The notes: a model not told the origin generated them from the letters alone. A DNA stretch of 32,935 nucleotides from Minisyncoccota bacterium (GCA_030054195.1 JASGCJ010000021.1:1-32935), one strand, 5' to 3'. Numbered from the stretch's first letter, positions 2,135 through 26,364 are shown. Translations and numbers: made by a program.

Positions 2135-2149
2135 ACCCTACCCCTGTAA

Positions 2150-2173: not shown

Positions 2174-2185
2174 GCTATTCAAACG

Positions 2186-2479
2186 ATGGGGTCTGCCTAC
2201 AGCTACAAATGTACGAATTCCGAATGCGGCTACGAAGCCACAATCTCGGGTGGGAAGGACTATGGATTCTGTGGAGAGGTCGAGTCGATGACATGTCTGG
2301 ACTGCAAGGAGTTGATGGATGTGCTGATTGCGCCTGCACCTAAATTGAAACCGATTGAACCGAGGTGCGATGAGTGCAAGGGGCAAAACCTAAAGAAATT
2401 CTATTCTGGCAGGACCCGATGCCCGAAGTGCGGCTCAAGACTCAAGAAGGACCCCAACTCCGATATTCTGTGGGACTAA
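2186..2479 (+). CDS. Small zinc-ribbon protein
   Basis: A 97-residue soluble protein dominated by metal-binding cysteine pairs: an N-terminal pair in YKCTNSECGYEA, CLDC in the middle, CDEC at about residue 59 and CPKCGSRL near the C-terminus. The last looks like a standard rubredoxin-type zinc ribbon. Such proteins may bind nucleic acid or act as assembly factors, but nothing here shows which. There is no ribosome site; the ATG sits 12 bases after the -10-like hexamer of the island element. The next gene starts four bases after its stop, so it heads a three-gene unit with the membrane protein and secreted protein that follow. No specific function is recognised. Confidence 0.75.
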   Translation: MGSAYSYKCTNSECGYEATISGGKDYGFCGEVESMTCLDCKELMDVLIAPAPKLKPIEPRCDECKGQNLKKFYSGRTRCPKCGSRLKKDPNSDILWD

Positions 2480-2482
2480 AGG

Positions 2483-3043: not shown

Positions 3044-3046
3044 CGT

Positions 3047-3430
3047 ATGAGAATTGGCATATCGGGGATGGTTCTGCATCTGGTGCTCCTACTTGTCTCA
3101 GGAGCTATAGCGGAGGATGGAGAGCAGGAAATGGCGGACTTTGTCGGAGGAGTTTACCGGGAAAAGGGATTTGCCGTTGTAATCGACAAAGATACGGCCC
3201 TAGTGAATGGAAAACTGATTCTACGGAATGGGGACGTCTTCATAACTCCAAAGGGGGTGTATTCGAATGATCGGGGAACCTATTCGAGTCGGAATGGGAT
3301 CGTGGTACAGGACGGGGATGTTTTTAGTGGGAAAGAGGGAACGGTGGTGGGTTCTGGTTCGCTATATTTCGGAGGCGGCGGTCAAACGATCGTTTCTACG
3401 GGCGTTACCAGCACCATGAGGAAGCCTTGA
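3047..3430 (+). CDS. Secreted repeat protein, GGVY family, copy 1
   Basis: A 127-residue protein with a signal peptide (basic MRIG, hydrophobic core to about residue 20, cleavage near AIA-ED). The mature part begins with the family signature EMADFVGGVY and continues as short Gly/Val-rich beta repeats such as GDVFITPKGVY and GTYSSRNG. The same signature occurs in the products at 3680-4078 and 31911-32759, so these are true paralogues. The repeat pattern suggests a small beta-solenoid or sheet outside the cytoplasm. Function is unknown; no catalytic motif is visible. It is the last gene of a unit with the zinc-ribbon and membrane proteins, three bases after the latter's stop. Confidence 0.8.
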   Translation: MRIGISGMVLHLVLLLVSGAIAEDGEQEMADFVGGVYREKGFAVVIDKDTALVNGKLILRNGDVFITPKGVYSNDRGTYSSRNGIVVQDGDVFSGKEGTVVGSGSLYFGGGGQTIVSTGVTSTMRKP

Positions 3431-3455
3431 TCTTTATCATGTCCTCATCCACCAG

Positions 3456-3472
3456 GCAGGGCATAGCCCTGC
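3456..3472 (+). other. Perfect 7-bp inverted repeat before promoter-like element
   Basis: GCAGGGC (3456-3462), loop ATA, and GCCCTGC (3466-3472) are exact complements. The hairpin sits between the secreted-protein stop and the next ATGTCC element. It could be a weak terminator (no T-run follows) or part of an operator. The same flank recurs imperfectly before the copy at 5303. Confidence 0.5.
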
Positions 3473-3474
3473 GG

Positions 3475-3498
3475 ATGTCCTAGGGGGTATGAGATGAT
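3475..3498 (+). promoter_or_regulatory. Island promoter-like element, copy 2
   Basis: ATGTCC (3475-3480), spacer TAGGGGGTATGA and hexamer GATGAT (3493-3498) end eight bases before the ATG of a 58-residue ORF. The 19 bases CCCTGCGGATGTCCTAGGG are shared exactly with the copy at 5303. Confidence 0.5.
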
Positions 3499-3506
3499 TT
3501 CGCCCA

Positions 3507-3683
3507 ATGAATCAAAATAATAAATACAAAATAAGTGCAGGCGGAAACAGGAGTAACGAGGCCGAGATGAGAAAGGCCCTACAGGCGATTATCCGGCTGG
3601 TGGAGGGCTGGGTGGATTCGGATGAAAGAAAAGCCGAGGCCACGATGCTGAAGATCCTCAACACCGCCCTGGAGGTTGTATGA
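3507..3683 (+). CDS. Small hypothetical protein (58 aa)
   Basis: A short ORF preceded by the island promoter-like element and overlapping the next start codon by ATGA (3680-3683). The product is soluble and largely helical: a basic start (MNQNNKYK), then an amphipathic stretch with EMRKALQAIIRLVEGWVDS and a C-terminal TMLKILNTALEVV. It is supported as a real gene because its 3' half is duplicated with a conserved reading frame at 6202-6276, where most base changes are silent or conservative, and a deleted third copy lies at 4173-4236. Function is unknown. The pairing with a secreted repeat protein suggests a two-gene module. Confidence 0.65.
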   Translation: MNQNNKYKISAGGNRSNEAEMRKALQAIIRLVEGWVDSDERKAEATMLKILNTALEVV

Positions 3684-4078
3684 GGGGCATTAAGATTAAG
3701 ATGATTTTGATGGCGGTACTGCTGATGGCAGGTCTTGCTTTTGCGGAGGATGAGGACGATGAGCGGACGGAAATGAAGGATTTTCTGGGTGGGGTTTATG
3801 GCGGGCGAGGGCAGTACAACATGGCAGGTTCGATTGCTACGGGTGAGGGCGGGGTGATTATGAAGAGGGGTAGCGTTTGGCTGACTCCACGCGGCCAGTA
3901 CCAGAAGGTGGGAAGTGTCTACTTAACTCCGGATGGAGGTGTGGTGACCCGTGCGGGCAGCACTTTCATCGACGAGGACGAGGTGATTGTGAAGGCAGGC
4001 AGTATCTATACTGGAAACGGGCAAACAACAACGACTGCCGGCAGCGTAGTGCTTAAGCCTGGATGGGCGACAAGATAG
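3680..4078 (+). CDS. Secreted repeat protein, GGVY family, copy 2
   Basis: A 132-residue protein with a signal peptide (MRGIKIK, hydrophobic core, cleavage near AFA-ED). An acidic linker is followed by the signature EMKDFLGGVY. Repeats follow in which a Gly-Ser-(Val/Ile)-aromatic step recurs about every 14 residues: GSVWLTPRG, GSVYLTPDGG, GSTFIDEDE, GSIYTGNG and GSVVLKPG. This regular spacing predicts a beta-solenoid-like fold. It is closest to the 3047-3430 product. The ATG overlaps the stop of the 58-residue ORF, so the two are translationally coupled. No enzyme motif or sortase signal is seen. Its role outside the cytoplasm is unknown. Confidence 0.8.
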   Translation: MRGIKIKMILMAVLLMAGLAFAEDEDDERTEMKDFLGGVYGGRGQYNMAGSIATGEGGVIMKRGSVWLTPRGQYQKVGSVYLTPDGGVVTRAGSTFIDEDEVIVKAGSIYTGNGQTTTTAGSVVLKPGWATR

Positions 4079-7164: not shown

Positions 7165-7200
7165 CTCCCCCGCCATAGAAACTGGTTTTAAAGTTTGGTT

Positions 7201-7938
7201 ATGTTTCCGCGTGCCGTGATCTCGAAAGTGGGGATTTACGTTTATCTCTACCGGGATCCGCGAGACGGCAAAATCTTCTACGTGGGAAAAGGGAAGGGCC
7301 AGCGGGCGTTCCAGCATCTAGTGGACGAAAAAGACGGGGTCAAAAGGAAGAAAATCCAGGAGATCCGAAACGCGGGACTTGAGCCCAAAATTGAGATCCT
7401 CGTCCATGCCCTTAAAGATGATGAGATGGCCTTGAAGATCGAGGCGGCCTTAATTGATCTGATTGGCGTCGGCCAGTTGGCAAACGAGGTTCGGGGTTAT
7501 GATGTCATTTCCCATGGAAAAATGGACGTGCAAGAGCTGGTCGCCCTGTACGATGCACCCAAGGGCATCATTCGGGATCAGGGGATTCTCTTAATCCGAA
7601 TCAACCAGCTATTCAGGCATGGGATGGGCTCCGAGGAACTGTATGAGGCAACGCGGGGTGTCTGGAAAATTGGCGCTAGGCGGAATTCGGTCCGGCATGT
7701 TCTGGCGCTTTATCAAGGTGTGGTGAAGGAGGTTTATGCGTTAGAGGGTTGGGAACCAGCGAATTGGAGGGCTTACAGTTTTCGGGCAGAGGAACTGAAG
7801 GCACGGGAAAAGCAGGATGTAGGCCGCTGGCAGTTCAAGGGCTCTGTAGCCAAGGAACCGATCCGTAGCAGATATTTGGGCAAAGACGTATCTAAGTATT
7901 TGGTGAAAGGGGCCATGAACCCGATCCAGTACGTATAA
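7201..7938 (+). CDS. GIY-YIG domain protein (LEM-3-like nuclease domain)
   Basis: A 245-residue protein whose N-terminal 100 residues form a GIY-YIG nuclease domain: GIYVYLY (residues 11-17), IFYVGKGKGQR (25-35) with the conserved Arg, and a later Glu in ALKIEAALIDLIG. The FYVGKGxGxR form is typical of the LEM-3-like branch. The C-terminal 140 residues are soluble and unrecognised, with an internal DQGILLIRINQLF motif. ATG at 7201 is preferred over the in-frame TTG at 7195; no ribosome site is clear. It likely cuts or nicks DNA. Its place before the WYL and DUF2779 genes suggests a defence role, which is an inference. Confidence 0.8.
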   Translation: MFPRAVISKVGIYVYLYRDPRDGKIFYVGKGKGQRAFQHLVDEKDGVKRKKIQEIRNAGLEPKIEILVHALKDDEMALKIEAALIDLIGVGQLANEVRGYDVISHGKMDVQELVALYDAPKGIIRDQGILLIRINQLFRHGMGSEELYEATRGVWKIGARRNSVRHVLALYQGVVKEVYALEGWEPANWRAYSFRAEELKAREKQDVGRWQFKGSVAKEPIRSRYLGKDVSKYLVKGAMNPIQYV

Positions 7939-11844: not shown

Positions 11845-12376
11845 AAATATTTTATACTTCGCTTATGGGTCAAATCTAAATCAGGAAGACTTAAACGATT
11901 GGAAGGCAAAAAAGCCAAAATGGCGAAACACTGATTTGAATCTCAATAAAAAGAGTATCGGATTTTTGTCTGGGTACCGTCTAGGTTTTACCCGAATTTC
12001 CATAACCAGGGAAAACATGGGCGTAGCCGATATTGTTCCTTCGGACGATCCTATGAGCAGGGTATGGGGGGTGATTTTTTCATTAGCCGATAAACAAGCT
12101 AAAGCGATTGAGGCTAAGGAAGGGTTCGTTGGCTTTGGTAATGCGGAGAACAGTTACGATCAAATTAAGGTGCAGGTCACGGACGCGGAAGGGGTGGAGA
12201 AACCATGCTTCACCTATCAGGCTGTTGTGCCCGATAATAATAAGCGAAAGAGCCTGTACTTTCGACCATCGAAAAAATATTACGAGGTGGTCCGAAAAGG
12301 GGGAGAGGACCACGAGTTACCCAGGGAATTCTTTTATCACCTCAAGATGGTTAGCGAGGCCTCGTGGGTTGTTTAA
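11837..12376 (+). CDS. Gamma-glutamylcyclotransferase-like (AIG2/GGCT fold) protein
   Basis: The 179-residue product starts with LYFAYGSNLN, the Y-x-GSN substrate-binding loop of the GGCT family. GVIFSLADKQAKAIEAKEG follows; its Glu is the usual catalytic candidate, and the body has the expected beta-barrel pattern. Enzymes of this fold release 5-oxoproline from gamma-glutamyl amines or peptides, but many members have other substrates. The TTG at 11837 is chosen as start because GGAGGG lies eight bases before it and the motif begins at once after it; it overlaps the preceding stop. It lies 28 bases before queC. Whether it takes part in 7-deazaguanine chemistry is unknown. Confidence 0.75.
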   Translation: MSENILYFAYGSNLNQEDLNDWKAKKPKWRNTDLNLNKKSIGFLSGYRLGFTRISITRENMGVADIVPSDDPMSRVWGVIFSLADKQAKAIEAKEGFVGFGNAENSYDQIKVQVTDAEGVEKPCFTYQAVVPDNNKRKSLYFRPSKKYYEVVRKGGEDHELPREFFYHLKMVSEASWVV

Positions 12377-12404
12377 TTTCAAGATCACTCTAAAATCAAC
12401 TCCA

Positions 12405-13223
12405 ATGAGTGAGTTGATATCAAAGGAGTTCTTTCGAAAGATGGGAAAGAAGGGTGGATCGGTAAAGTCAGCCCGGAAGGCCGTGGCATGTAGAATAAAT
12501 GGGATGAAAAGATCCGGAGTAAAGCAAAGGCTAAAAGTTGTCTGTTTGGTGAGTGGCGGCATGGACTCGGTCGCGGCCCTATATCATGCAGCACGAAAGT
12601 ATGAAGTTGTCCATGGACTCAGCTTTGAATACGGATCGAAGCATAACGCAAAAGAGATTCCCTTCGCTAAAAAGCACTGTGAAAACCTCGAAATTCAACA
12701 CACCACGGTCAATTTAGACTTCATTGCCGAGACATTTAAATCTGATCTCCTTTCCACAGGGGGAGACATCCCAGATGGGCACTATGAAGAGCTGACAATG
12801 AAGCAGACGGTCGTTCCGTTAAGAAATGGAATCATGCTCACCATTGCGGCTGGTTTTGCGGAAAGCAGAGGTGCGGAGGGGCTCGTGATTGCAGCTCATT
12901 CAGGTGACCACGCGATTTACCCTGATTGCCGAGAGGATTTTATGGCCGATATGGCTGGGGCGATCCGGAACGGTACCTATGCCCAAATTCAATTGCTGCG
13001 ACCCTTTATAACTTTCACGAAAGCTTTGATCGCTAAACGTGGGCATGAACTGGGCATTGATTTCTCTCAGACCTGGTCATGTTACAAGGGCAAACAGATT
13101 CACTGTGGGACCTGTGGCACATGCGTCGAGAGAAGAGAAGCCTTCAAGCTCGCTCGAATCAAGGATCCGACTCGATACCAGAGCCTAGCTCCGCTGCCGC
13201 CTAAGCCTTCGCTAGGGAAATAG
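12405..13223 (+). CDS. queC: 7-cyano-7-deazaguanine synthase
   Basis: QueC turns 7-carboxy-7-deazaguanine into preQ0 with ATP and ammonia. The PP-loop motif LVSGGMDSVAA binds ATP. SFEYGSKHNAKE and VPLRNGIMLTIAAGFAE are family motifs, and the C-terminal SCYKG ... HCGTCGTC cysteines bind zinc. From the ATG at 12405 the product has 272 residues, including about 33 extra at the N-terminus with MGKKGGSVKSARKA, a KGG-type basic motif. Starts at 12441 (AAGGAG 13 bases upstream) or 12504 (usual QueC length) are also possible. queE begins six bases after its stop. The catalytic call is firm; the start is uncertain. Confidence 0.95.
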   Translation: MSELISKEFFRKMGKKGGSVKSARKAVACRINGMKRSGVKQRLKVVCLVSGGMDSVAALYHAARKYEVVHGLSFEYGSKHNAKEIPFAKKHCENLEIQHTTVNLDFIAETFKSDLLSTGGDIPDGHYEELTMKQTVVPLRNGIMLTIAAGFAESRGAEGLVIAAHSGDHAIYPDCREDFMADMAGAIRNGTYAQIQLLRPFITFTKALIAKRGHELGIDFSQTWSCYKGKQIHCGTCGTCVERREAFKLARIKDPTRYQSLAPLPPKPSLGK

Positions 13224-13229
13224 GATCCT

Positions 13230-13919
13230 GTGCGAATTTCTGAGATTTTCTACTCGATCCAAGGGGAAGGGGAGTTGGCGGGAGTACCCTCTGTCTTTGT
13301 GCGGACATCCGGTTGTAACTTACGCTGTGTTTGGTGTGATACGCCATACGCCTCTTGGAATCCGGAGGGTGAGGATATGAGCATTGATCAAATTATTGCG
13401 GAGGTGGAAAAACATCCATGCCACCATGTGGTTTTAACGGGTGGAGAACCCATGATTGCCAAAGAAATACGGGATTTGGCGAAAAGGCTGAAACAGACTG
13501 GTAAGCACATTACCATCGAAACAGCTGGCACGGTGGCGCCAGACGGCATTTCTTGTGATCTGGCATCGATAAGTCCGAAACTGGCTAATTCAACACCACC
13601 GGAAGCTAAAGCCCATGCCTGGAGGGCAAAACATGATGCCTTACGTCTTCAACCTGAGGTGATCCAGAATTGGCTGGGGAAATACCATACCCAGTTAAAG
13701 TTCGTGGTTCAGGGCGAGTCAGATCTAATCGAAATCGATGATCTGTTAAAAAAGCTGTCCAAATTAAAACCCGAGCAGGTCCTTTTAATGCCTGAAGGTA
13801 TTGATGCCAAGGTACTTAAAGAAAGGGGGCCTTCATTGGCAAATATCTGCAAATCAAGGGGTTTCAGATTTTGCCCTCGACTCCATGTTGAGCTTTATGG
13901 CAATAAGAGGGGTACTTAA
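13230..13919 (+). CDS. queE: 7-carboxy-7-deazaguanine synthase
   Basis: QueE is a radical SAM enzyme that contracts the pterin ring of 6-carboxytetrahydropterin to give 7-carboxy-7-deazaguanine. The 229-residue protein has the substrate-side motif YSIQGEGELAG (residues 8-18) and the cluster motif C29-x3-C33-x2-C36 (CNLRCVWC), followed by DTPY. TGGEPM and the later SPKLANS segment are typical for QueE. The start is GTG at 13230, which gives the usual RISEIFYSIQGEG N-terminus. It lies between queC and queD with spacings of six and two bases, so the three are one unit. Confidence 0.96.
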   Translation: MRISEIFYSIQGEGELAGVPSVFVRTSGCNLRCVWCDTPYASWNPEGEDMSIDQIIAEVEKHPCHHVVLTGGEPMIAKEIRDLAKRLKQTGKHITIETAGTVAPDGISCDLASISPKLANSTPPEAKAHAWRAKHDALRLQPEVIQNWLGKYHTQLKFVVQGESDLIEIDDLLKKLSKLKPEQVLLMPEGIDAKVLKERGPSLANICKSRGFRFCPRLHVELYGNKRGT

Positions 13920-13921: not shown

Positions 13922-14380
13922 ATGCCTTTTCGTATCTGTAAAACGATTGAGATTGAGAATGGGCATATGCTTTCCAAACACCCTGATGCTTGTCGATTTC
14001 CGCATGGGCACTCCCGTAGGGTAGAGATGATCTTGGAGGCCGACACCTTGGATCAAAACGAAATGGTCTGTGACTTTAAAATCCTAAAAGAGGCGATGCA
14101 TGACTTCCTTATGTCCTGGGATCATGCGATGGCCGTGAATACGAAAGATCCTAACTTTGATGGCATGCGAAAGATCTACGGAGACAGAATCATCCCTTTC
14201 GACAATCAAGATCCCACAACCGAAGTCATGGCTAAAGCAGTTTACGAAAAACTAAAGACTAGCCTTAAGGATTATCAAAAGAATCCACAAGCTCGGTACC
14301 CTCTTTCAAAAAGCGTGCTTGTCGCCTCAGTTAAGGTTTGGGAAACAAGCTCCTCCTGGGCTGAATATACTGAGAAATAA
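13922..14380 (+). CDS. queD: 6-carboxytetrahydropterin synthase
   Basis: QueD converts dihydroneopterin triphosphate to 6-carboxytetrahydropterin. The 152-residue protein has zinc ligands His15 (ENGHML), His28 and His30 (FPHGHS), catalytic Cys24, the Asp67-His68 pair (SWDHAM) and Glu141 (VWETSSSWAEY). All are in family order and spacing. Insertions after residue 70 (DPNFDGMRKIYGD) and near 118 (DYQKNPQARYPLSK) make it longer than the typical 120-residue form. It starts two bases after queE and ends one base before folE2, which makes its substrate. Confidence 0.95.
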   Translation: MPFRICKTIEIENGHMLSKHPDACRFPHGHSRRVEMILEADTLDQNEMVCDFKILKEAMHDFLMSWDHAMAVNTKDPNFDGMRKIYGDRIIPFDNQDPTTEVMAKAVYEKLKTSLKDYQKNPQARYPLSKSVLVASVKVWETSSSWAEYTEK

Positions 14381-14381
14381 A

Positions 14382-15218
14382 ATGCCTAAGGCCTCAAAAC
14401 AAAAATCAAAGTCAGGCAACACATTGCCTGACATTCAGAAGATTGCTGACACGAGGGGTATTGCGATCGATCAAGTCGGAATATCAAATCTTAAATATCC
14501 GATTCAAGTGTTAGATCGCAATGGTAAGCCTTTTTCTGTCGTTGCAGAAATTTCAATGTCTGTGCATTTACCTCATCATTTCAAGGGCACTCATATGAGT
14601 CGGTTCTTAGAAGTGCTGACTTCTCATGAAGGTGAGATCACCATGCGGACGCTGCCCGCAATCTTGCGTGATCTTAAGGCCAAACTAGACGCCGAAAGTG
14701 CCTATATTGATGTCAAATTCCCCTACTTCATTGAGAAAGAGGCTCCAGTATCGAAGGCCAAGGGCAAGGTTGGATTTGAGTGCACCTTTATTGGTTCATC
14801 GAATGGGGTGAAAGATGACTTTGCATTGAGGGTGAAAGTACCCGTCACAACCCTTTGTCCCTGCAGCAAAGAAATAAGCGACCGGGGGGCTCATAACCAG
14901 AGGGGATACGTAACTCTTGAAGTGAGAACACGTGAGCTAAGTCCCGGGAAGTGGGACATCATATGGATCGAGGAGCTTGTAGAGGTCGCAGAAAATGCTG
15001 CTTCAGCACCGGTTTATTCGGTTCTAAAGAGACCAGATGAAAGACATGTTACGATGCAGGCGTATGACAACCCGGCATTTGTTGAGGATGTAGTTAGGTC
15101 TTGTTCCCTATATCTTAAAAAAGATATTAGAATCCATTCGTTTAAAATTACTGTTGTAAATCATGAAAGTATTCATGAACACAACGCATTCGCATCTATT
15201 ATTAATAATTATCAATGA
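14382..15218 (+). CDS. folE2: GTP cyclohydrolase IB (FolE2 type)
   Basis: This enzyme converts GTP to dihydroneopterin triphosphate, the substrate of QueD. The 278-residue protein carries HLPHHFKGTHMSRF (62-75), the metal and substrate motif CPCSKE (catalytic-type Cys159) and GAHNQRG (169-175). The late glutamate motif appears as HESIHEHNAF. These distinguish FolE2 from FolE1 and from QueF. An ATG at 14382 gives the normal N-terminus. Its stop overlaps the HNH gene start (ATGA). The last roughly 120 bases are strongly AT-rich, unlike the rest of the gene, so a recombination joint may lie near 15100. FolE2 can work with metals other than zinc, which would help under zinc shortage. Confidence 0.94.
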   Translation: MPKASKQKSKSGNTLPDIQKIADTRGIAIDQVGISNLKYPIQVLDRNGKPFSVVAEISMSVHLPHHFKGTHMSRFLEVLTSHEGEITMRTLPAILRDLKAKLDAESAYIDVKFPYFIEKEAPVSKAKGKVGFECTFIGSSNGVKDDFALRVKVPVTTLCPCSKEISDRGAHNQRGYVTLEVRTRELSPGKWDIIWIEELVEVAENAASAPVYSVLKRPDERHVTMQAYDNPAFVEDVVRSCSLYLKKDIRIHSFKITVVNHESIHEHNAFASIINNYQ

Positions 15219-15943
15219 AAAGTAGTGAGTCGTTTAAAAACAAAATTGCCGAACACCTAATAAAGAGAACGCGTATATTTCCCATAATGCAAAGCATTAA
15301 AAATGCATACGATGCGGAGGATGATCTAATTGCTAGCATAAGAAGTTTTTACTTATTGCTGCCAGTAAAAAGTTTAACAAATGAATGGCCGAGTATTAAC
15401 AAATTTGCGAGAAGAGAGGTCATAAAAGAACATCTAAAAAAAGTGTGTGACAATGATAAAATAAACAAACTACATATCAAAATAATTGATACTTGGATTA
15501 ATGCTAGGTATGGGTCAAGGGACAATCTTGAAAGATATGGTCGTATACTCGAAGATAAGAATGGAAATGTTTGTTTTTATTGCGGCAAGCGTATTGATAC
15601 AGATAAAGCGGTTGATCATATTTTCCCGTTTTCTAAAGGGGGGGAAGATAGTATAGAAAACTTCTTTCTTGTTCATGGGGCTTGCAACGCATCAAAGAAC
15701 TCGCATGTTCCTGGCGAATTTATTCAATGGGCAAGTTCAGAACCCGAAAGTCAACTTAACGAAAACATTAATAGAAGAATTAAGTTTCTTGTTTTCCTGC
15801 GAGACAATTTCACCTGTAAAAAAATAGGCTGTAACAATGGATTATTTTCAAATGTTGAAATTAAAATATCAAAAAAATACGTGACTGGAATCTGCACTTA
15901 CGATAATTTGATAACAGTCTGCGATAAATGTGAGGAGTACTAA
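15215..15943 (+). CDS. HNH endonuclease-like protein, possible double zinc module
   Basis: A 242-residue protein. After a helical N-terminal region, residues 110-170 form an HNH domain: C120-x2-C123 (CFYCGK), Asp134-His135 (AVDHIFP), GG, Asn149 (IENFFLVHGACNASK), and C157 with N158 and K161. A second, incomplete module follows at 195-242 with C201, C206, DNLITVCDKC (C236, C239). It lacks an evident catalytic His pair. The gene is much richer in AT than queC-folE2 and overlaps folE2 by ATGA. Position in a DNA-modification island makes it a candidate restriction nuclease for unmodified DNA. It could also act in some other mobile-element role. Confidence 0.8.
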   Translation: MKSSESFKNKIAEHLIKRTRIFPIMQSIKNAYDAEDDLIASIRSFYLLLPVKSLTNEWPSINKFARREVIKEHLKKVCDNDKINKLHIKIIDTWINARYGSRDNLERYGRILEDKNGNVCFYCGKRIDTDKAVDHIFPFSKGGEDSIENFFLVHGACNASKNSHVPGEFIQWASSEPESQLNENINRRIKFLVFLRDNFTCKKIGCNNGLFSNVEIKISKKYVTGICTYDNLITVCDKCEEY

Positions 15944-15946: not shown

Positions 15947-17272
15947 ATGAAAACTTATGATTATCCATGTATTTTCCTGTCAAAAAAAGGATGGGTAAAC
16001 TCCGAAGGTAAACCCTTTAGCATGGTTTCTTTTTATGCGGAAGCTGGGCAGATGGATATATGGTCGGGGGTATATAGATGCGGGCAGGATGAAAAAGGTT
16101 ATCAGCGTGTTTTAAAAGAAAAGCATTCTACAGAAATTAAAAAGTTTCTTGAAGTTGAAACTAATGTCATCCCAAATTCAGTTGTAATTGCCTTTAATGG
16201 CAAAATAAAAGACAAAGGTAAATTCTACGATTCAGCAGTTTTGATAAAGAAAGCTAGTTCAAAGCATATAGACGAAGATGGTGAAGAAGACTCAGATATT
16301 GAAATTGGAACTGGGATATTAAGAGTCAGTGCTCACTCAAACTGTATAGCTGTTGCGAATAAAGAAAAAATACTTAAAGAAGTAGAATTAAACAAATTTA
16401 GAAGCGCATCTATAATTGATGGTCAGCATAGAGTTTCAGGTGGAAATTCAGCAGCTTGCAATGTTTTTTTTCCTGTAACAGCCTTTTTAGGGATAACTAA
16501 AGAAGATCAAGCTTTTCATTTCATTGTTATTAATCGAAAGTCTGAAAAAGTATCCACTGATGTAATTGAAGCAGTTGTGCCTAAAGTTATTTATAAGAAT
16601 CTTCAGGATAGATTAGTATCTGCCTCGATAATAGGCTCTGAGGCAGATATTATTTATTCCCTTGATAATTCTAAAGATAGTCCTTTTAAGGATAGTATAA
16701 TGTGGGGAAATAAGCCAGGAAGAACGATTAAAAAAAGTGCTATCGATAAAATAATTAAGTACTCAAAGCAATTACCAATAGACGCTAAGGATCTGCTTTC
16801 AGAAACTGAATTAATTAAAGCTATTTGGAAAGGGATTAAAAAACATACAGATCTCTTTTGGCAAAGTAAGATTGTCAAGGTGAATAGGTTAGAGTACAAA
16901 AACCAATTTCTTATTAAAGGAGCAGGTGTATTGCCGACACTTCAACTTGTTGTAAATGCTGCGTGGATGGCGAATTCAATTAAGCCAAGTAGTGACCCAA
17001 ATATCCCCAATGAAAAGAAAGTTGCAGATAGCGTTTATGATTATATTAAGTACCTGCCTAATGAATTGTTTACGTGCGTATGGAATAAAAAATCCATTAC
17101 AAATGAAAACTCAATGCAAAATCTTCAGAGATTAATGATGGATATGATTAGGACCAAAAAAGTTTTATATAAGGAATCGGGCAATAACTGGTTTGATGAA
17201 GCTAAGGCGCTTAAGAAAAAGAAAACAAAACGAACTAAAGCAAAAAAACGCAATACAAGAATCAGTCGCTAA
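15947..17272 (+). CDS. DGQHR-domain protein (DndB/DpdB-related), copy 1
   Basis: A 441-residue protein with the motif IIDGQHRVSGG (DGQHR at 158-162). An N-terminal GYQR (51-54) and a VIPNSVVIAFN segment recur in the two minus-strand relatives near dpdA. After the DGQHR motif, FIVINRKSEKVSTDVI matches the usual FxxIN step. The C-terminus is very basic (KKKKTKRTKAKKRN), suggesting DNA contact. DGQHR proteins include DndB and DpdB; Salmonella DpdB has ATPase activity needed for preQ0 insertion. This copy is the most divergent, is AT-rich and is paired with the HNH gene three bases upstream. It may serve recognition or regulation rather than base insertion. Confidence 0.82.
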   Translation: MKTYDYPCIFLSKKGWVNSEGKPFSMVSFYAEAGQMDIWSGVYRCGQDEKGYQRVLKEKHSTEIKKFLEVETNVIPNSVVIAFNGKIKDKGKFYDSAVLIKKASSKHIDEDGEEDSDIEIGTGILRVSAHSNCIAVANKEKILKEVELNKFRSASIIDGQHRVSGGNSAACNVFFPVTAFLGITKEDQAFHFIVINRKSEKVSTDVIEAVVPKVIYKNLQDRLVSASIIGSEADIIYSLDNSKDSPFKDSIMWGNKPGRTIKKSAIDKIIKYSKQLPIDAKDLLSETELIKAIWKGIKKHTDLFWQSKIVKVNRLEYKNQFLIKGAGVLPTLQLVVNAAWMANSIKPSSDPNIPNEKKVADSVYDYIKYLPNELFTCVWNKKSITNENSMQNLQRLMMDMIRTKKVLYKESGNNWFDEAKALKKKKTKRTKAKKRNTRISR

Positions 17273-17276
17273 GTAC

Positions 17277-18383
17277 TTAAGCTTTATATTTAAACTTTGT
17301 AAGTAAAAAGTTTGATATTAGTTCTATATCTTTTGAGATATTCTGAACATCATCCCATTTCTTGGTTGAATCACCTCCAAGTCTCCACTCGCCTGAATTC
17401 CAGGCGCAATAAGGTTTTAGTGAAGTTAACTCAGCGCAAAAAAGCTCGAAGGGGGGCATTTCAAGTGTTCGAAACTTATCACAAATGGCATCCATTAAAT
17501 ATCCTAAAGAAACGATTCCCACTCCATGTGAAAGTCGTGTTTTATTAGGTCTTAGTCCCCAGGAATCATTAAATACACTCTTTACTGCTGACCAGTATAT
17601 ATTTAATAACTTCGCACTCTGAGTGTTCGACGCATCTGGTTCCTTAAATGTTTTAAACTTATATAAAGCGCCATCATTAAGGCTATTTTCAACCATTTTT
17701 AGAAATGAGTTGTCCTTTATGAAGCCTTCAATATTTGTGGGAGTCTGAATTGCTCGATAAAACGGAGAATTCATGTCTGTTATTACCATTTGTAAAAGTG
17801 TAGTGGATATTTTCCGTTTTTCATATTTCGAGCTTAAACGAATTGCGGTATCTGGTAGTAATTCAAAGATTAACCCCTGCGGTAGCGGTTTTGTCGAGTT
17901 TACAAGAATAAACTGTTCTTTCTGCTCGGCTATGCTGTCGGTGATAAAAGCTGTAACAAAAACGGGAAACTCCTTGATGTCAGCATCACGGATAGCAGCT
18001 GACCGTTGTTGACCATCCACAATCCAGCCCGGCCTTTCGACTCCCTCGGAAATGTCTCTTGGCACAGTCAGCATTCCATGCCTGATTGTCTTATTGGCGT
18101 CTGCGTACTTAAGGGGCTCAAATGTCACGCTTGTATTAAAAGCAACGACAATAGCGTTCGGTAATATTGCAGATTCTGTTTCAAGATATGCTCGGATCTC
18201 CTTAATGTGACTGATTACTTCGGGGCGCTGATACCCAGTAATTTTCGCTTCTTCATTCCTTCCAATCCTTGAGATCTGGGCAATATCTAAGAGCTTCTTT
18301 CCATCGATCCCAAAAGAGTAGAGGGGGCGACCTTTTCCTTGGCGAATTTCAATGGCGGGTATCTGCATGGTGTTGTTGCTCAT
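17277..18383 (-). CDS. DGQHR-domain protein, DpdB-like, copy 2
   Basis: A 368-residue protein with GYQR at 50-53, LPNAIVVAFN (74-83), WIVDGQQRSAA (DGQQR at 123-127) and QFILVNSTKPLPQGLIFELLPD. The product at 19612-20742 has the same motifs at identical positions, so these two are close paralogues. The known role of DpdB is to support DpdA during preQ0 insertion, using ATP. The ATG overlaps the dpdA stop (ATGA), so the genes are coupled. Its 3' half (about 17277-17950) is AT-rich while its 5' half is like dpdA. It converges on the plus-strand DGQHR gene with a four-base gap. Confidence 0.88.
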   Translation of the reverse strand: MSNNTMQIPAIEIRQGKGRPLYSFGIDGKKLLDIAQISRIGRNEEAKITGYQRPEVISHIKEIRAYLETESAILPNAIVVAFNTSVTFEPLKYADANKTIRHGMLTVPRDISEGVERPGWIVDGQQRSAAIRDADIKEFPVFVTAFITDSIAEQKEQFILVNSTKPLPQGLIFELLPDTAIRLSSKYEKRKISTTLLQMVITDMNSPFYRAIQTPTNIEGFIKDNSFLKMVENSLNDGALYKFKTFKEPDASNTQSAKLLNIYWSAVKSVFNDSWGLRPNKTRLSHGVGIVSLGYLMDAICDKFRTLEMPPFELFCAELTSLKPYCAWNSGEWRLGGDSTKKWDDVQNISKDIELISNFLLTKFKYKA

Positions 18384-19606
18384 AGTTTGTTCTTCTCCGC
18401 TAGTTTTGTTTTAAGGTTATGAAGGTTATGAAATCCACGTCTTCTGTTTCGCTCGGCCCCACGGAAAACTACGACCTGAATGCCGACTGTTTTGCAAATC
18501 TCACAGGGACATCTTAGCCAGGGTTTGGCCTCAAGGGTTTCCGCGTAAAGTGCTGAATCATCCTTTTTCCCGTGCCAAAGACGCTCATAGGTGCGAACGC
18601 GATTCACAATGTCGGACAAAGAAAGTTGCCCGCGATCAAACTCCTGGATTCCCTGTAGGCAGAGCTTTTCAAGTTCGCTGGCTGTTTCTTGTTTAATCTC
18701 TCCGGCTAGAATCTTCTTCTTCAGTCCAGGATTCTCGCCCACCTGGGGGATGCGCACGGCCGTGTAGGTCTTATCTCCGATAAAATAGTTGTCCTTATCG
18801 TCCATGAAGGCTTTTTTCAGTGCGCTTGTGCTATCGAAGCTAGCTACTCCATATTTTTTAAATTCCTGAACATGATCGATTCTTGAAATGCCTAAGAGGT
18901 GAAGTTTAGTCTCGGGTTTACGCACCTGCTCAACCGCTTCCAGGACGGACATGACCTCGCGATTATTCAGGGGGACTAAGCCCCCAAGAGCTATGTAGCG
19001 ATACCCAATCTTCTGCATTGCTATTACCGCATCTGAATACGATTTAGGGCTCCAACCTTGGGCAGCTCCAAGCGGAATGAAGGGCACTTTACGGTCGGTG
19101 CACTTCTCAAAAAACTCCTCTGCAAGGGCAAGGGTTAAATCAAACCGGCGCTTCCAATCATCCGGGACCTCCATCTCTTCAGGCTTCTTTAGAAATCCCA
19201 AAATTACATGATCCAGAGATATGCCATATTGGAATTGGCAATCAGTATAAAACTCTACAAGAGAGTCGACGGTGAAGGGGGGGACATGGGCTTTGACGAA
19301 AGAGAAGCTCCCACAATCACCCATGATCTCGACTTTGTCGCCCCCCGGGACTTCATTAAGGCGGAGAAACTCCCTAGCGCCAACACGCTTTAAGCGCTGT
19401 ACCTGTCCAAAAGTATAGTGGACAGATGTTTTAAGCTTTTCGACAGCCGCACGGGATATAAGCATACCGTCGTAGGGGGGGTACTTAAGAATCTCGTGGG
19501 CGTACATCTGGGCGCGTTGCCTGTTGGAGGCAAGCGCACGACTTTCTTTCTGAAAGTCGAATGATGGATCCACGAGATCGTGGGAGTCTGGAAAAAAGAA
19601 CTTCAC
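18380..19606 (-). CDS. dpdA: DNA 7-deazaguanine transglycosylase (tRNA-guanine transglycosylase family)
   Basis: DpdA swaps guanine in DNA for preQ0. The 408-residue protein has a TGT-like TIM barrel: MGDCGSF with Asp97 (general TGT acid/base site), Gln183-Gly184 (AAQGW), the ALGGL loop (206-210) and candidate nucleophile Asp258 (SFDSTS). The zinc site is C366-x-C368-x2-C371 with His393 or His396 (CPCEIC ... GFHNLH). GTG at 19606 is preferred: it gives MKFFFPDSHDLVDP, the normal DpdA start, and lies five bases after the upstream stop. An ORF running back to 19747 is non-coding overlap. Tight packing between two DpdB-like genes and the opposing preQ0 genes supports a DNA rather than tRNA substrate. 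Confidence 0.9.
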   Translation of the reverse strand: MKFFFPDSHDLVDPSFDFQKESRALASNRQRAQMYAHEILKYPPYDGMLISRAAVEKLKTSVHYTFGQVQRLKRVGAREFLRLNEVPGGDKVEIMGDCGSFSFVKAHVPPFTVDSLVEFYTDCQFQYGISLDHVILGFLKKPEEMEVPDDWKRRFDLTLALAEEFFEKCTDRKVPFIPLGAAQGWSPKSYSDAVIAMQKIGYRYIALGGLVPLNNREVMSVLEAVEQVRKPETKLHLLGISRIDHVQEFKKYGVASFDSTSALKKAFMDDKDNYFIGDKTYTAVRIPQVGENPGLKKKILAGEIKQETASELEKLCLQGIQEFDRGQLSLSDIVNRVRTYERLWHGKKDDSALYAETLEAKPWLRCPCEICKTVGIQVVVFRGAERNRRRGFHNLHNLKTKLAEKNKL

Positions 19607-19611
19607 AGAAT

Positions 19612-20742
19612 CTAGCTTTGCCCGCGTCGCTCCATGTAAGAACGGATGAGGAAGTTGGAGACCATCGAGTGATGTTTGTGGACGTTTTGTAGTTCGTTCC
19701 AGGCAAGACCACCGAGTGAATCCCATTCTCCGTCTGTCCATCGGCAAAGATCGGCAATCATCTCTAATTCTTTTTTCACGAACTTTGGGGCGCCTTTTTC
19801 ACGTAAGTCTACGGACCCCATAATGCGATCCATCAACTTGCCCATTGAGCGGAGTCCAATACCGTGCATCAAACGGCTGTGGTGGGGCGGTTTGCCCCAG
19901 GCGTCTGGAAATGTCTCTTTTACCGCGGTCCAGTAGGTGTGGAGGATGGCCCAAATAGCTGTCTGATCGTACTCCCCGGTAGCGATATTACGGTATGGGA
20001 AGAGGCAACCAGAGGGGTTCGTTAAACTATCTTCAATCATCTTCACGATCACCGTATCTGTAACAACGGCTTTCTCGGCTTCGTCCTTGGGTGTAGATGG
20101 ACGGCGAATTAGACCCCGGAAGGGTGAGTCTTTCTCTGAATTTAAAAGGTCACAAAGGGCGGATGGAACCTTGCGAATGGCAAGCTTAGGGGGAAGGGGA
20201 GAGTCAACTTCAGGAAGTAGTTCGGTCACTAGTCCTCGAGGGAGAGGTTTACTATTATTGATCCTCATAAACTGGTCTCTCTGCAACTCCACGTTATCGG
20301 CAATGAAGGCGCAAACGGGTACGGCAAACCTCTTGTCTTCGCACATTTCAATGGCCAGAGCGCGCTGTTGACCATCGACAATCCAGGCGGGTTTGTCTTT
20401 CTCCCTGCTCGGCACAGGTATGCGAAGAAGTCCGGCCACAGCTAGGCCGTCTGATGTCTTCTGACCACGACTGGACACAAACTTTACATTTGATGAAAAG
20501 GAGAGGATTAGCGGGTGGGCCAAAATCATGGCGGGATCTTGGAGGTATTCGGAAATCTCTTTGACGTGCTTCTTAACGCCTTCCCGTTGGTAGCCAATTA
20601 GTCTACCGCCATCATTCCGGGAGACCCGAGAGATGCCGGCCAACGATAGAAGCTCGTCCCCCGATAAGGAGAGGAGGTAAATAAAGGAATTGCCCCGCTG
20701 TTGTACTTTTAGGGCTTTGCGTTCGATGATCTTATTTTTCAT
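19612..20742 (-). CDS. DGQHR-domain protein, DpdB-like, copy 3
   Basis: A 376-residue paralogue of the 17277-18383 product. GYQR lies at 50-53 and WIVDGQQRALA (DGQQR at 123-127) at the same positions, followed by QFMRINNSKPLPRGLVTELLPEV. The C-terminal halves also correspond (HTYWTAVKETFPDAWG against the ISRWSAVKSVF-like region; both end in a W-x-x-LQNV/VQNI helix). AAGGAGT lies before the ATG. It directly precedes dpdA in the operon and is the best candidate for the main DpdB. Unlike copy 2, its base composition is even and matches dpdA throughout. Two DpdB-like proteins could form a mixed complex. Confidence 0.9.
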   Translation of the reverse strand: MKNKIIERKALKVQQRGNSFIYLLSLSGDELLSLAGISRVSRNDGGRLIGYQREGVKKHVKEISEYLQDPAMILAHPLILSFSSNVKFVSSRGQKTSDGLAVAGLLRIPVPSREKDKPAWIVDGQQRALAIEMCEDKRFAVPVCAFIADNVELQRDQFMRINNSKPLPRGLVTELLPEVDSPLPPKLAIRKVPSALCDLLNSEKDSPFRGLIRRPSTPKDEAEKAVVTDTVIVKMIEDSLTNPSGCLFPYRNIATGEYDQTAIWAILHTYWTAVKETFPDAWGKPPHHSRLMHGIGLRSMGKLMDRIMGSVDLREKGAPKFVKKELEMIADLCRWTDGEWDSLGGLAWNELQNVHKHHSMVSNFLIRSYMERRGQS

Positions 20743-20760: not shown

Positions 20761-21723
20761 TTATTTTGTTTGGGTGATGAAGATTTCTTGGGTTTGTAAA
20801 AAAAGGCCTCGAAATCGGCTTTGTTCGCAGGCTTTGCCGCTATCACGGTAAATTCGTAGCAAGCGACCGCTACTCGCGGGTAGTCCATTCTTGAGTGATT
20901 CCCGGATAAAGCTAAGGACTTCTTCGTCAGTTGATACCTCGCGGACTGGATAATTGGCTGAAGGTAGGTCTCGTAATAGAGCACTGTACTTTCGCTCTAG
21001 ATCCACGGCATTGATTTCATTGATGGAATTTGCAGTTAAGACGTGGTGAATGATGCGGGCGTTGAGGGCCATGCGAGAGACGCCGACGATGTGTTCCATT
21101 CTGGCGTCACAGGGAAGGAAGTTGTTTTTTAGTGGGCCCTTTTTCCCAGATCCGGAAGAGATAATTACTAGGTGGTTTGGATTATGGAGGAACTCACGGG
21201 CCGTATATAGGTCTCGGTAAACTGCGGTAAGATACTCGGGGGATAGAGCAACAATGAGAGGTTCAGAGGGGTAAGCTTTAGCTAAATCGGCAATGCATGA
21301 GATCGGATTGCCTTGTTGCTTATGCCATTCGCTAAGTCCTCCCCACCATTCCTCATGGGTAAAGCGACTTGGTTTGTCTGGCAAAACAGAATCAAGTTTG
21401 CTGCTGGAAAATGTGGCCGCATAAGAACAGATAGCTCGATCGATCGGGATTAAGCCAAAACCGGCCGAAATTACCCAGAAACGGACATGACTGAAGGCAT
21501 TGTTCTTTTTGGCCATTCCACGAATAACGCTCCAATAGTTGCCACCATATAAATCAAGAGCGGGGATTCCCTCGGCGGAGTGTGTCATCAACGCTTGAGT
21601 CCAGCGTGCAAGTCTTGCAGGAAGATCTTTATCTTTTATCAATCGCAACTGCGTATCCGGATGGGAGTCCCCCTTTTTTCGGTTCGTGCAAGTGACAATT
21701 ACGTTCAGGGGACCAACCTGCAT
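20761..21723 (-). CDS. DUF6884/YaaA-like protein of the dpd operon
   Basis: A 320-residue protein that starts with VIVTCTNRKK, the opening strand of DUF6884 and related YaaA-type proteins. It continues with ALDLYGGNYWSV (LYxG motif) and FWVISAGFGLIPIDRAICSYAATF, matching the family's S-A-x-x-G-L step. A second half has LVIISSGSGKKGPLKNNFLPCDARM. It lies 18 bases before the DpdB-like gene, inside the dpdA operon. In described systems a third modification gene, dpdC, converts DNA preQ0 to the amide form; this gene could fill that place or act in base recognition, but I cannot show either. A C-terminal 80 residues may form a winged helix. Confidence 0.65.
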   Translation of the reverse strand: MQVGPLNVIVTCTNRKKGDSHPDTQLRLIKDKDLPARLARWTQALMTHSAEGIPALDLYGGNYWSVIRGMAKKNNAFSHVRFWVISAGFGLIPIDRAICSYAATFSSSKLDSVLPDKPSRFTHEEWWGGLSEWHKQQGNPISCIADLAKAYPSEPLIVALSPEYLTAVYRDLYTAREFLHNPNHLVIISSGSGKKGPLKNNFLPCDARMEHIVGVSRMALNARIIHHVLTANSINEINAVDLERKYSALLRDLPSANYPVREVSTDEEVLSFIRESLKNGLPASSGRLLRIYRDSGKACEQSRFRGLFLQTQEIFITQTK

Positions 21724-22945: not shown

Positions 22946-23662
22946 ATGAAATCTCAGACAAAAATGAAGAAACAAAAAGTAGCTAGAAAACAGCAGGCTC
23001 CCGTAGAGGGGATGGTGGATGGAATGGCGAGGGTGGTAATCCAAGGAAAGGACCGACATGAAGACAACACGGACGCGGTGCATGCCGCAGTTTCGGCGGC
23101 GCGAACGGCACCCGGGGGATTGATGGTGGTTTTTCGTGGGGAAGGAGTGCTCGGCCCGTTTCCGGTGCTGGAGTTGTGTGACCGATTGCAGGAGCTGCGG
23201 CTCGTCGGGAAGAGGGTATTGATGGTGGCGCAGACCTGGTTAGGCGCACCGGACCTGCTCTTGTGGCTGCAGGGAACCGAGCGGTATCTGACGCCCTCCG
23301 GCTACGGTCATGTCAAAGTGCCGGCCTGGTCGAAATACAGCTCCCATGTGCCCGAAAAGGCGGTGGTGGAAAATCCGGATCCTATGTGGGCTGAATTTAT
23401 GGAATCACAAGAAGTACCCCAGATGCGGGCCAACCCGGACGACCCTCGGAACTATGCTTACCAAAAGGTATTGGGAAGGCTGAACGAGTACTTTCCAGTT
23501 GAGGAGTATGTAAACAAAGTCATCCCCCGTGAGGATTTGGTGGAACTGGGCCTGATCACAGGCGAGGGGTTGGACCGGGTGCTGGTGGAGGAGTATAAGA
23601 AGCCCGCTGAGGAAAAGGCGATAACACCAAGCAAAAAGAGAGAACTAGGTGGCGACTGTTAA
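22946..23662 (+). CDS. ClpP/SppA-fold-like protein, probably degenerate
   Basis: A 238-residue protein with a basic N-terminus (MKMKKQKVARKQQ after a short lead) and a central alpha/beta region. GGLMVVFRGEG, then LCDRLQELRLVGKRVLMVAQTWLGAPDLLLWLQGTERYLTPSGYGHVKVP follow the order of ClpP/crotonase folds: strand, helix, VLMVA strand, small-residue turn, LxxxGxxRyxxPxxxxxV. The catalytic Ser position appears as Gly-Ala, so protease activity is doubtful. The C-terminal part is charged and partly repetitive in Glu/Lys. It converges with the 901-residue gene, sharing four bases at the stops. The fold is a pattern-based guess; an unrelated alpha/beta protein is possible. Confidence 0.5.
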   Translation: MKSQTKMKKQKVARKQQAPVEGMVDGMARVVIQGKDRHEDNTDAVHAAVSAARTAPGGLMVVFRGEGVLGPFPVLELCDRLQELRLVGKRVLMVAQTWLGAPDLLLWLQGTERYLTPSGYGHVKVPAWSKYSSHVPEKAVVENPDPMWAEFMESQEVPQMRANPDDPRNYAYQKVLGRLNEYFPVEEYVNKVIPREDLVELGLITGEGLDRVLVEEYKKPAEEKAITPSKKRELGGDC

Positions 23663-26364
23663 GATGTTCTCTTTGAAAGAGCCCAATTCGCAGCGTTCTC
23701 TACAGACCTTTTAATTGAGGCCTTTCCACGCCCCGTACATGAAAACCACGGAGTGTTTTCATTGCAGTTCCTACGAACGGTCCGGCCAAACTGGGTGCGA
23801 ACAAGAGGGCTAAGTACAACAGCCGAAAAAGTAGGGATCTTTGGGCCAATCTTATCCCAATGTGTATTCCAACCAGAGTCCCAACCCGGAAGGTAAAACT
23901 CAGCCTGCAAACCAGGCCAACTAGTACGCCAATCTTTTTTAAGCGGTTCAATGTAACGTTCTTGGGTTTCATTGCCGCCAATGTAAAGAATGCGAACTTG
24001 CTTCGTTCGTAGGGTAGTTGATGGGAGTGTTGGCGTAGGTTCGGTTCCAAAACTGTTGCGAAGGTCATCTAAAGAGAAGCCATCGGTCGGATTATCTGCA
24101 AGGTACTCCTGCATTCTGTGAATGACGTTGCGTGCTTCTATTTGAAAGATGTAATCATCTTCAGCTCTGTAGCGATAGAATCGGCTTCGCAAGGCTTGAA
24201 GCACATCGGCGTCTTTGCCTTCTCGTTCCCAGCAGCGCATACGAGCATCCGTGGCGTCGTCATATGACCATGCCGGCGAATAATTCGTCTCCTTCTCAAG
24301 CAAAGAAAGAAATCTGCCAGCACATTCCGGGCTTCGATTGGCAAGTCTCTCCATATGATCCAGGACAATGGAAGCAGAAGAAATATCCCCTTCTCTAAGA
24401 CAAACCGGTAGAAGCTTTTCCAGTTGTTCCCAAATAGCAGGAGGAGCCATTCTGGTTTCAGAAAGATGGGAGAGGAAAGAGGATCTAATCTTTTTTAATC
24501 GAGCTGGATCCTGACGTTGCAACCAACCTGCACCGCCGGCAGGAACTTCTTTGAGCATCTGCTCCGCCAATCTTTCGGCCAGTGACGGATCATCGTACAT
24601 GAGAGCTGCGGACAAAACTCGTTCTCGTAGGTGAAGAGGGAAATTTATTCCGGACGAAAAAGCCTGATCCAACGATAGGTCGGCTAAGGCAAAGCAACCT
24701 GGGTCCACCGTCTCCAAAAGGGCCAATCCGTAAAAGAAGCGAGCCCAAGGTAGAACGCCTGCCACAGAATACTCACTTCCACGTTCTGCCATTCCGCCTA
24801 AAGCTTGGGTAAGCAACACTACCGCCATACGAGGATCTGGCTTGAGCTGAATTATATTTAGTAGTCCCAGAATGAGAGCTGCATTTGTATGATTCGCAGA
24901 ATGCTGTTGAAAAGCCTTATCTAAATAATGGCGGGTTGACTGAAGTGAATCACGAAGGGTTGTTTGGCGTTTCTCGTCCTGAAGGGTCAGGAATATAGCT
25001 GACAGGGACCGAAACCCAGCCTCAGCAAGGCTTAAATCAGCCAAAATCTCAGAGGAGGATTCAGCAGAATCGTGCAAAAGGTTTTTATAAATACGAATCG
25101 CATCCTGCAGTTGTCCTGTTCCTTGGAGACCTTGCGCAAGTTTCCGGGTATTGGCATATTGAAGGCGAAGTAAATCCGTGTCTTTATTAAAGAACTGAAG
25201 GTCATTTTGGATAATCCGAAGGACCTGAATTATGTCAGCGGTTGTCTTGCCTTCACGGAGTGCCTCCGCACATAAAACGTGAAGCTTCTCGAGGAAAAGA
25301 AAGCGGAAATGGAGAGTCCTGAAAAGAGGCAATTGGTGCTTAAGTAATGGGATTAGTATCTCAAACTTCTGGTGTTCCCAAAGCGGTTTGTATAGTGCGT
25401 TTAGAATCATTCGTCCGCCTGACATTGTTCGGTCCTTTGCGAGATCAAGGGCGAGATCTTTATTCTTCTGGATTATATTGAAGCAATCCTGGAAGCGATC
25501 CGCCCGAGCAAGACCAAGAATGACGCCTGTAAGATACCACTGCCGCCTCTGAGAGTTTTCGCCAGGAAAATGGAACTGGAGATTCATGTTAAAAAGGGCG
25601 TGAAGGTAACCCCGATGGAAATGACACCTCATTCGTTCTCGATTTAAGGAAACTATCTCTTCCACAAGGTCTTCGAGTTGTTCTTTGTTTAAAGCACCTT
25701 CCGTCTCTTGAACCGAAGAAATGCATTCCTTGATTAGGACGTTGTCTAGGGTTGTAAATTCCTCTGCGTCCTCAACTATAGAGGGTGATATTTCTTCTGG
25801 AGAGTCAGCGTCTTTTACTCCGTTCCAAAAGGACGAGATGCTCTCCTGAATATTCGGGTATCTCTGAAGATTCTGCCAGAAAGTATCTTTCACCAAAAAG
25901 AGGTACCCTAAATAAATACCTGAAAACTTTGTCGGATGATCGACTTGCAAGTGCTTGATTCCTTTTTCTAACTGCTTGCCCTCAATCGGAATCGCATCAG
26001 GAAAAAACATACCTTTTTCGTGTTTTACGCTCATCGCATCCAAGAAAGAAATGATTAGTGGGCGATGGTCCTTTAATAGAAAAGCACGAATTGCGGTTCC
26101 TAAAAATGCACCAAATCTTGCATACCCTAAGTGCTTCGAAAGGTGTTTTGCTATATCTTCTCTTTCCATTTTGCTTCGAACATACTGCGTGCGGAAATTC
26201 AATACCTCAGCCAAAAGATCCATGGCTTTTAGTGCTTCTTTCTTTTGGTGTTCCTCATTTGAAAAAACAAGTGCTTGAGCGGCTGACAAACGCTCTTCTA
26301 CGGTAAGAACCGACCAAAGGGTTTTAAAACTTAAACCGTTATCCGATTGGATGACTGCACTCAT
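23659..26364 (-). CDS. Large helical-repeat protein with C-terminal DUF2325-like domain
   Basis: A 901-residue protein. Residues about 1-780 are almost entirely helical, with TPR-like stretches such as LAQGLQGTGQLQDAIRIYKNLL and repeated Leu/Ala pairs. The last roughly 110 residues form a small alpha/beta domain starting VRILYIGGNETQERYIEPLKKDW. It continues with FSAVVLSPLVRTQFGRTVRRNCN and ends WFSCTGRGKASIKRSVENAA, which matches the pattern of DUF2325 domains (GG near the first strand and a (S/T)GRGxxS turn). A helical sensor with a small effector domain is a design seen in defence proteins, but no nuclease or NADase motif is evident. It lies 97 bases after the LysR-type gene. Function is unknown. 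Confidence 0.65.
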   Translation of the reverse strand: MSAVIQSDNGLSFKTLWSVLTVEERLSAAQALVFSNEEHQKKEALKAMDLLAEVLNFRTQYVRSKMEREDIAKHLSKHLGYARFGAFLGTAIRAFLLKDHRPLIISFLDAMSVKHEKGMFFPDAIPIEGKQLEKGIKHLQVDHPTKFSGIYLGYLFLVKDTFWQNLQRYPNIQESISSFWNGVKDADSPEEISPSIVEDAEEFTTLDNVLIKECISSVQETEGALNKEQLEDLVEEIVSLNRERMRCHFHRGYLHALFNMNLQFHFPGENSQRRQWYLTGVILGLARADRFQDCFNIIQKNKDLALDLAKDRTMSGGRMILNALYKPLWEHQKFEILIPLLKHQLPLFRTLHFRFLFLEKLHVLCAEALREGKTTADIIQVLRIIQNDLQFFNKDTDLLRLQYANTRKLAQGLQGTGQLQDAIRIYKNLLHDSAESSSEILADLSLAEAGFRSLSAIFLTLQDEKRQTTLRDSLQSTRHYLDKAFQQHSANHTNAALILGLLNIIQLKPDPRMAVVLLTQALGGMAERGSEYSVAGVLPWARFFYGLALLETVDPGCFALADLSLDQAFSSGINFPLHLRERVLSAALMYDDPSLAERLAEQMLKEVPAGGAGWLQRQDPARLKKIRSSFLSHLSETRMAPPAIWEQLEKLLPVCLREGDISSASIVLDHMERLANRSPECAGRFLSLLEKETNYSPAWSYDDATDARMRCWEREGKDADVLQALRSRFYRYRAEDDYIFQIEARNVIHRMQEYLADNPTDGFSLDDLRNSFGTEPTPTLPSTTLRTKQVRILYIGGNETQERYIEPLKKDWRTSWPGLQAEFYLPGWDSGWNTHWDKIGPKIPTFSAVVLSPLVRTQFGRTVRRNCNENTPWFSCTGRGKASIKRSVENAANWALSKRTS

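Follow-up and report, generated by a model that had tools for sequence, protein, structure and literature searches.

A probable compact Dpd island with two DpdB lineages and a candidate split HNH–DGQHR restriction module in a Minisyncoccota bacterium

We analysed the genes around the DNA-modification gene dpdA in a 32,935-nucleotide contig of a Minisyncoccota bacterium (GCA_030054195.1, JASGCJ010000021.1; contig C87 of a 1.87 Mb assembly of 100 contigs, 87% complete), the whole of which we call the window. The genes appear to form a compact Dpd (7-deazaguanine DNA modification) island whose three DGQHR-domain proteins probably have two jobs. In the reading that we modestly favour overall, two DpdB proteins serve DpdA, and an HNH nuclease and the third, more distant DGQHR protein (DGQHR3) make up a split, exchangeable restriction module that senses modification. 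The island genes are arranged in two convergent operons with final stop codons separated by 4 bp. The minus-strand operon reads dpdC (20761–21723; PADLOC DpdC, 4.9e-59), dpdB, dpdA and dpdB, and the plus-strand operon queC, queE, queD, folE2, HNH and DGQHR3. The start of the HNH gene overlaps the folE2 stop by 4 nucleotides, thus joining the nuclease pair to the synthesis of 7-cyano-7-deazaguanine (preQ0). The window holds DpdA, DpdB and DpdC together, the combination that defines a Dpd modification module. The dpdA product (18380–19606, minus strand; GTG start at 19606 rather than the TTG of the longest open reading frame, ORF) is a predicted DNA-guanine transglycosylase (NF041059, 535 bits) related to PDB 7ui4 (E 5e-108).

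An earlier note on this DNA had described three DGQHR paralogues around one DpdA. Three such ORFs are indeed present, with dpdA between the two on the minus strand, and all exceed the 58.85-bit threshold of the DGQHR model TIGR03187 (76 bits for DGQHR3; 201.5 and 214.6 bits for the others). However, only two are true DpdBs: the genes at 17277–18383 (minus strand, 368 amino acids, aa) and 19612–20742 (minus strand, 376 aa) score 444 and 402 bits, respectively, on the DpdB model NF041060, for which the cut-off is 300 bits. DGQHR3 (15947–17272, plus strand, 441 aa) fails that model at 70.7 bits and has no match to the Pfam DndB family (PF14072, gathering threshold 29.1 bits), on which its relatives at loci L020 and L053 reach 35 bits. 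The family scores, together with the tree, rule out three equal paralogues. Similarity among the three proteins is nevertheless far beyond chance: the two window DpdBs share 34% identity (E 9e-79), and profile–profile comparison (hhalign) of DpdB with the DGQHR3 family gives a probability of 99.8% (E 1.8e-30). The motif positions in the note were borne out, with GYQR at residues 50–53 and DGQQR at 123–127 in both DpdBs, and GYQR at 51–54 and DGQHR at 158–162 in DGQHR3. The (L/I)PNxxVxAFN segment it assigned to all three occurs in two; in the DpdB encoded between dpdC and dpdA, the corresponding sequence is ILAHPLILSFS.

To characterize the two DpdBs, we compared 37 DpdB sequences from 19 dpdA loci, of which 17 have dpdB on either side of dpdA and two have just one dpdB each. 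Copies encoded between dpdC and dpdA, including that at 19612–20742, form one clade (17 rows; Shimodaira–Hasegawa-like approximate likelihood ratio test, SH-aLRT, 99). On the opposite side of that branch lie all post-dpdA copies, including that at 17277–18383, along with a third copy at L021 and the single DpdBs of E. coli and Enterobacter; with so long an outgroup, the rooting among these is uncertain. The two DpdBs of one locus share 28–36% identity, equal to the values between loci, so the split of the lineages is old and a recent tandem duplication is ruled out. The GxQR, DGQQR and FxxxN motifs are invariant in all 37 sequences across both lineages, and the loss of ATP-site residues that the note had named as fatal to its proposal was thus not observed. 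Each lineage also has invariant residues of its own. Distances within the two lineages co-vary (r = 0.90, p = 0.0005), and the matrices of both lineages and DpdA correlate at r 0.88–0.98, as expected for a co-inherited operon. By these comparisons, the two DpdBs appear to be separate, ancient, co-inherited lineages in fixed positions around dpdA, and most likely act jointly on DpdA.

Two dpdB genes around dpdA are a common and already known architecture, found in 9 of 17 dpdA-bearing plasmid records and, within the window's class, in genomes G275 and G643 and, spanning two contig ends, G461. Extra dpdB copies (801, the most for any dpd gene) are reported in a published survey (PMC11888242), and we therefore do not share the earlier note's view of the arrangement as exceptional. 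Other arrangements also occur. Pseudomonas argentinensis (L021, 7424–8470) encodes a third true DpdB beyond the flanking two and an HNH–DGQHR3 pair, and this copy groups with the dpdA-downstream lineage. On Acetobacter and Methylorubrum plasmids (L065, 8001–9359; L072, 7365–9344), dpdC–dpdA loci have no dpdB found nearby. In cyanobacterial and Paenibacillus plasmids (L067, L070, L071, L075 and L076), dpdA encodes about 690–715 aa, roughly 250–300 aa above the usual length, with no adjacent dpdB annotated or found.

We then asked where relatives of DGQHR3 and of the HNH gene upstream of it (15215–15943, plus strand; PF01844, 1.3e-11) reside. A search with DGQHR3 matched proteins on a Pseudomonas aeruginosa plasmid (NZ_CP133095, L018), beside dndBCDE, and on an Agrobacterium vitis plasmid (L019), beside dpd genes; an HNH gene lies directly upstream in the former and beyond an intervening IS5 transposase gene in the latter. 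An alignment built from these proteins retrieved six further close members by sequence alone, from Chloroflexaceae (L020), P. argentinensis (L021), Rhizobium (L022), Burkholderiales (L023), Pararoseomonas (L024) and genome G160 (L053). All six lie beside modification genes (dpd at L021–L024, dnd at L020 and L053), and as genomic context was not used to find them, the association is not circular. The close family of nine, window included, is thus divided between six dpd (deazaguanine) and three dnd (phosphorothioate) loci.

Every one of the nine comes with an HNH gene, which is directly adjacent in the six retrieved by the alignment (at L020 the contig edge leaves just its 3' end). In 9/9 cases, a protein with a DGQxR motif is thus genetically linked to an HNH nuclease next to a modification operon. 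The distances among the HNH proteins follow those among the DGQHR3 proteins (r = 0.98, p = 0.0002), and eight HNH homologues all retain H135, N149 and N158. A single dnd-linked clade was rejected in the tree of HNH plus DGQHR3 (approximately unbiased test, p = 3.6e-5), indicating that the pair has moved between modification chemistries. More distant relatives occur as a pair in reversed gene order beside dpd genes (G461, L113; Bradyrhizobium plasmid L074). Together with the two DpdB lineages, the constant presence of HNH beside DGQHR3 supports the division of labour suggested in the earlier note, with two DGQHR proteins for DpdA and the third for the nuclease.

In the mechanism that we propose, QueC, QueE, QueD and FolE2 would make preQ0, which DpdA would swap into DNA. 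The two different DpdB nucleoside triphosphatases (NTPases), whose genes flank dpdA, would assist DpdA, probably together in a heteromer or one after the other. DpdC would convert the inserted preQ0 product to 2'-deoxy-7-amido-7-deazaguanosine (dADG; Dpd biochemistry is summarized in PMC12839542). DGQHR3 would act as the NTP-dependent sensor in a nuclease made by two genes: in a physical complex with HNH, it would inspect DNA for the island's mark, and HNH would cut DNA without it, a split-gene mode of working like that of SspE, DndI or GmrSD. Several precedents lead us to this proposal. DUF262 and DGQHR domains are related, with QR, DGQxR and FxxxN motifs common to both (PMC4619093), and all three motifs are present in DGQHR3. 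In DndI and SspE, a DUF262 domain whose NTP site carries DGQQR is joined to HNH, and the modification-stimulated NTPase frees the enzyme from self DNA (PMC11662687, PMC9646914). ATP and GTP binding has been shown for a DndB-like protein (PMC12704722).

With Dpd islands of the Salmonella Montevideo and E. coli type, the window shares dpdA, dpdB, dpdC and the preQ0 genes, with DpdA and both DpdBs above the NCBIfam cut-offs; it differs in having two DpdB lineages flanking dpdA and the HNH–DGQHR3 pair, and in that dpdJ was not found in the genome. Alphaproteobacterial plasmid islands (for example, A. vitis, L063) have the same dpdC–dpdB–dpdA–dpdB order and the same two DpdB lineages. The A. vitis island likewise contains HNH and DGQHR3 genes, but unlike the window adds dpdD, dpdG, dpdH, dpdJ and dpdK, and its DGQHR3 is shortened beside an IS5 transposase gene. 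At the dnd loci L018 and L053, the homologous pair follows the same order as in the window, HNH then DGQHR3, whereas the neighbouring modification is phosphorothioate rather than deazaguanine. SspE and DndI (DUF262 plus DUF1524) resemble the window pair in joining an NTPase domain with a DGQ(H/Q)R motif to HNH beside a DNA-modification operon. The window differs in having two separate proteins, a PF01844/HNH_5 rather than a DUF1524-type HNH, and a DGQHR-domain rather than a DUF262 sensor; PF03235 (DUF262) had no match in DGQHR3 or in the whole genome. In GmrS/GmrD, different genes can encode the sensor-NTPase and the HNH (PMC4619093), but the targets are modified phage DNA and the protein families differ. 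By its domain and profile matches, the HNH–DGQHR3 pair is not a member of the SspE, DndI or GmrSD families.

If the pair cuts unmarked DNA, it could stand in for the described restriction genes. No dpdD–K gene was recognised among the scanned ORFs of the window, where the sole match of this kind, to DpdF, is to the HNH motif alone. In the 87% complete genome, dpdJ was not found with a query that was positive in G275 and G643; the other dpdD–K genes were not searched genome-wide. For the dnd-linked genomes, a search for DptFGH (TIGR03237/TIGR03238) gave no match, but the controls were equally empty. A broader proposition is that the HNH–DGQHR pair is exchanged between phosphorothioate and deazaguanine systems, reads its neighbour's mark and here replaces dpdD–K, and that Dpd modification commonly uses two DpdB lineages that are not interchangeable, with just one of them present in the described E. 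coli and Salmonella system; we advance this only tentatively, as somewhat doubtful.

Several observations weigh against our favoured reading. At four loci (L019, L021, L022 and L024), dpdD or other dpd restriction genes occur alongside the pair, so that the pair may be accessory there and replacement would not be general. A second DpdB is not universally needed, since islands of the E. coli type manage with one and at two plasmid loci none was found near dpdA. Comparison of the DGQHR3 and DUF262 profiles aligned only the DGQ(H/Q)R motif, with a probability of 6%. A PDB fold search with the DGQHR3 model gave no significant match, and its matches in a viral library (GmrSD_N, DndB and ParB-like proteins) had E values of 5e-4 and weaker and template modelling scores of about 0.2–0.3. 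The HNH structure prediction was poor (predicted local distance difference test, pLDDT, 42) and unusable. The window pair is the most divergent member of its family (19–24% identity). Finally, the low GC content of HNH (0.339) and DGQHR3 (0.337), compared with 0.43–0.51 in most of the island and 0.40 in the adjacent dpdB, suggests that the pair may be a recent passenger that arrived later. The same-genus genomes listed gave no match.

Among other explanations, we considered that the pair could be a type IV-like, modification-dependent nuclease directed against foreign phage modifications and merely co-located in defence islands. GmrSD and BrxU do act on modified DNA with a DUF262 DGQQR domain and HNH (PMC4619093, PMC12707154), and GmrSD_N proteins are among the viral-library fold matches. 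However, all nine close members sit specifically at dpd or dnd loci rather than in mixed defence islands, and the window pair is operon-linked to preQ0 genes, making this explanation unlikely. It is quite unlikely that all three DGQHR proteins serve modification, with DGQHR3 as a third DpdB-like ATPase for DpdA (active, for instance, in a different sequence context) and HNH as an unrelated neighbour. Although DGQHR3 and DpdB share a domain family, as the hhalign comparison indicates, and the L021 island has a third true DpdB, DGQHR3 reaches only 71 of the 300 bits required of a DpdB, and its relatives are constantly accompanied by HNH and occur at dnd loci without dpdA nearby.

The second DpdB could also be a redundant, old duplicate retained by operon hitch-hiking, as the single DpdB of E. 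coli-type islands might imply. The lineage-specific invariant residues, the intact core motifs in every copy and the fixed positions across phyla argue otherwise, and we consider redundancy very unlikely. Repression of the dnd operon by DndB (PMC4507180) provides a model in which DGQHR3 would control transcription of the island in the manner of DndB, with HNH as a separate effector. We hold this to be highly improbable, as L018 and L053 encode a true dndB in addition to DGQHR3, which shows the two to be different proteins at dnd loci, and DGQHR3 co-diverges closely with HNH.

Should the reading of two DpdBs plus a split sensor nuclease be correct, it would bear on a poorly understood step, the restriction of unmodified DNA by Dpd, for which the described arm needs many genes. 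A two-gene HNH–DGQHR arm, related to pairs at phosphorothioate loci, would provide a small restriction module open to testing, and would tie DpdB, DndB, SspE, DndI and GmrSD together as versions of a single NTP-gated sensor. The two ancient DpdB lineages, each in its fixed position, also allow a direct test of why some Dpd systems have two DpdBs and those of the E. coli type just one. The available parts of two surveys note HNH genes near dpd islands (PMC11888242) and diverse HNH nucleases near dnd (PMC10853773), and describe no HNH–DGQHR pair at both. In the literature examined, which did not include the main Dpd papers, we found no description of such a pair beside dndBCDE and no statement of two ancient DpdB lineages; novelty is on both counts provisional.

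Within the close family, DGQHR3 is broken in two rhizobial islands: in A. vitis (L019, 13053–16065) it is N-terminally cut and separated from HNH by the IS5 transposase gene, and in Rhizobium (L022, 9998–11174) it is split across two overlapping ORFs. The pair seems dispensable there. No HNH–DGQHR fusion was found, and the long DGQHR proteins that were checked lacked HNH. A phage origin of DGQHR3 was rejected, as the DGQHR proteins on viral contigs were all distant and the phage collection yielded nothing. At L111 (genome G518, 2037–3780), a gene for an N4/N6 DNA methyltransferase overlaps one for an apparently frameshifted DGQHR protein of 271 aa, where the same sensor logic is perhaps combined with a third chemistry, methylation. 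A 619-aa protein at L055 (3–1862) has a DGQHR/DndB domain and a weak C-terminal HEPN (Swt1-like) match, possibly another effector linked to the DGQHR sensor domain.

The remaining plus-strand island genes are assigned to preQ0 synthesis. They are queC (12285–13223; PF06508, 200.7 bits; TIGR00364, 174.2 bits against a cut-off of 150.3), with its start set inside a longer ORF; a queE-like radical SAM protein gene between queC and queD (13230–13919; PF04055, 64.3 bits); queD, of the 6-pyruvoyl tetrahydropterin synthase family (13922–14380; PF01242, 97.1 bits); and folE2, encoding a type I GTP cyclohydrolase (14379–15218; PF02649, 302.1 bits). Elsewhere in the window, a 901-aa ORF (23659–26364) has no match in Pfam, NCBIfam or PADLOC. 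A homologue of the anti-phage protein PD-T4-3 (GIY-YIG; 7195–7938, PADLOC E 3e-47) is encoded upstream of genes for a WYL-domain regulator and a DUF2779 protein, making the contig a wider defence region.

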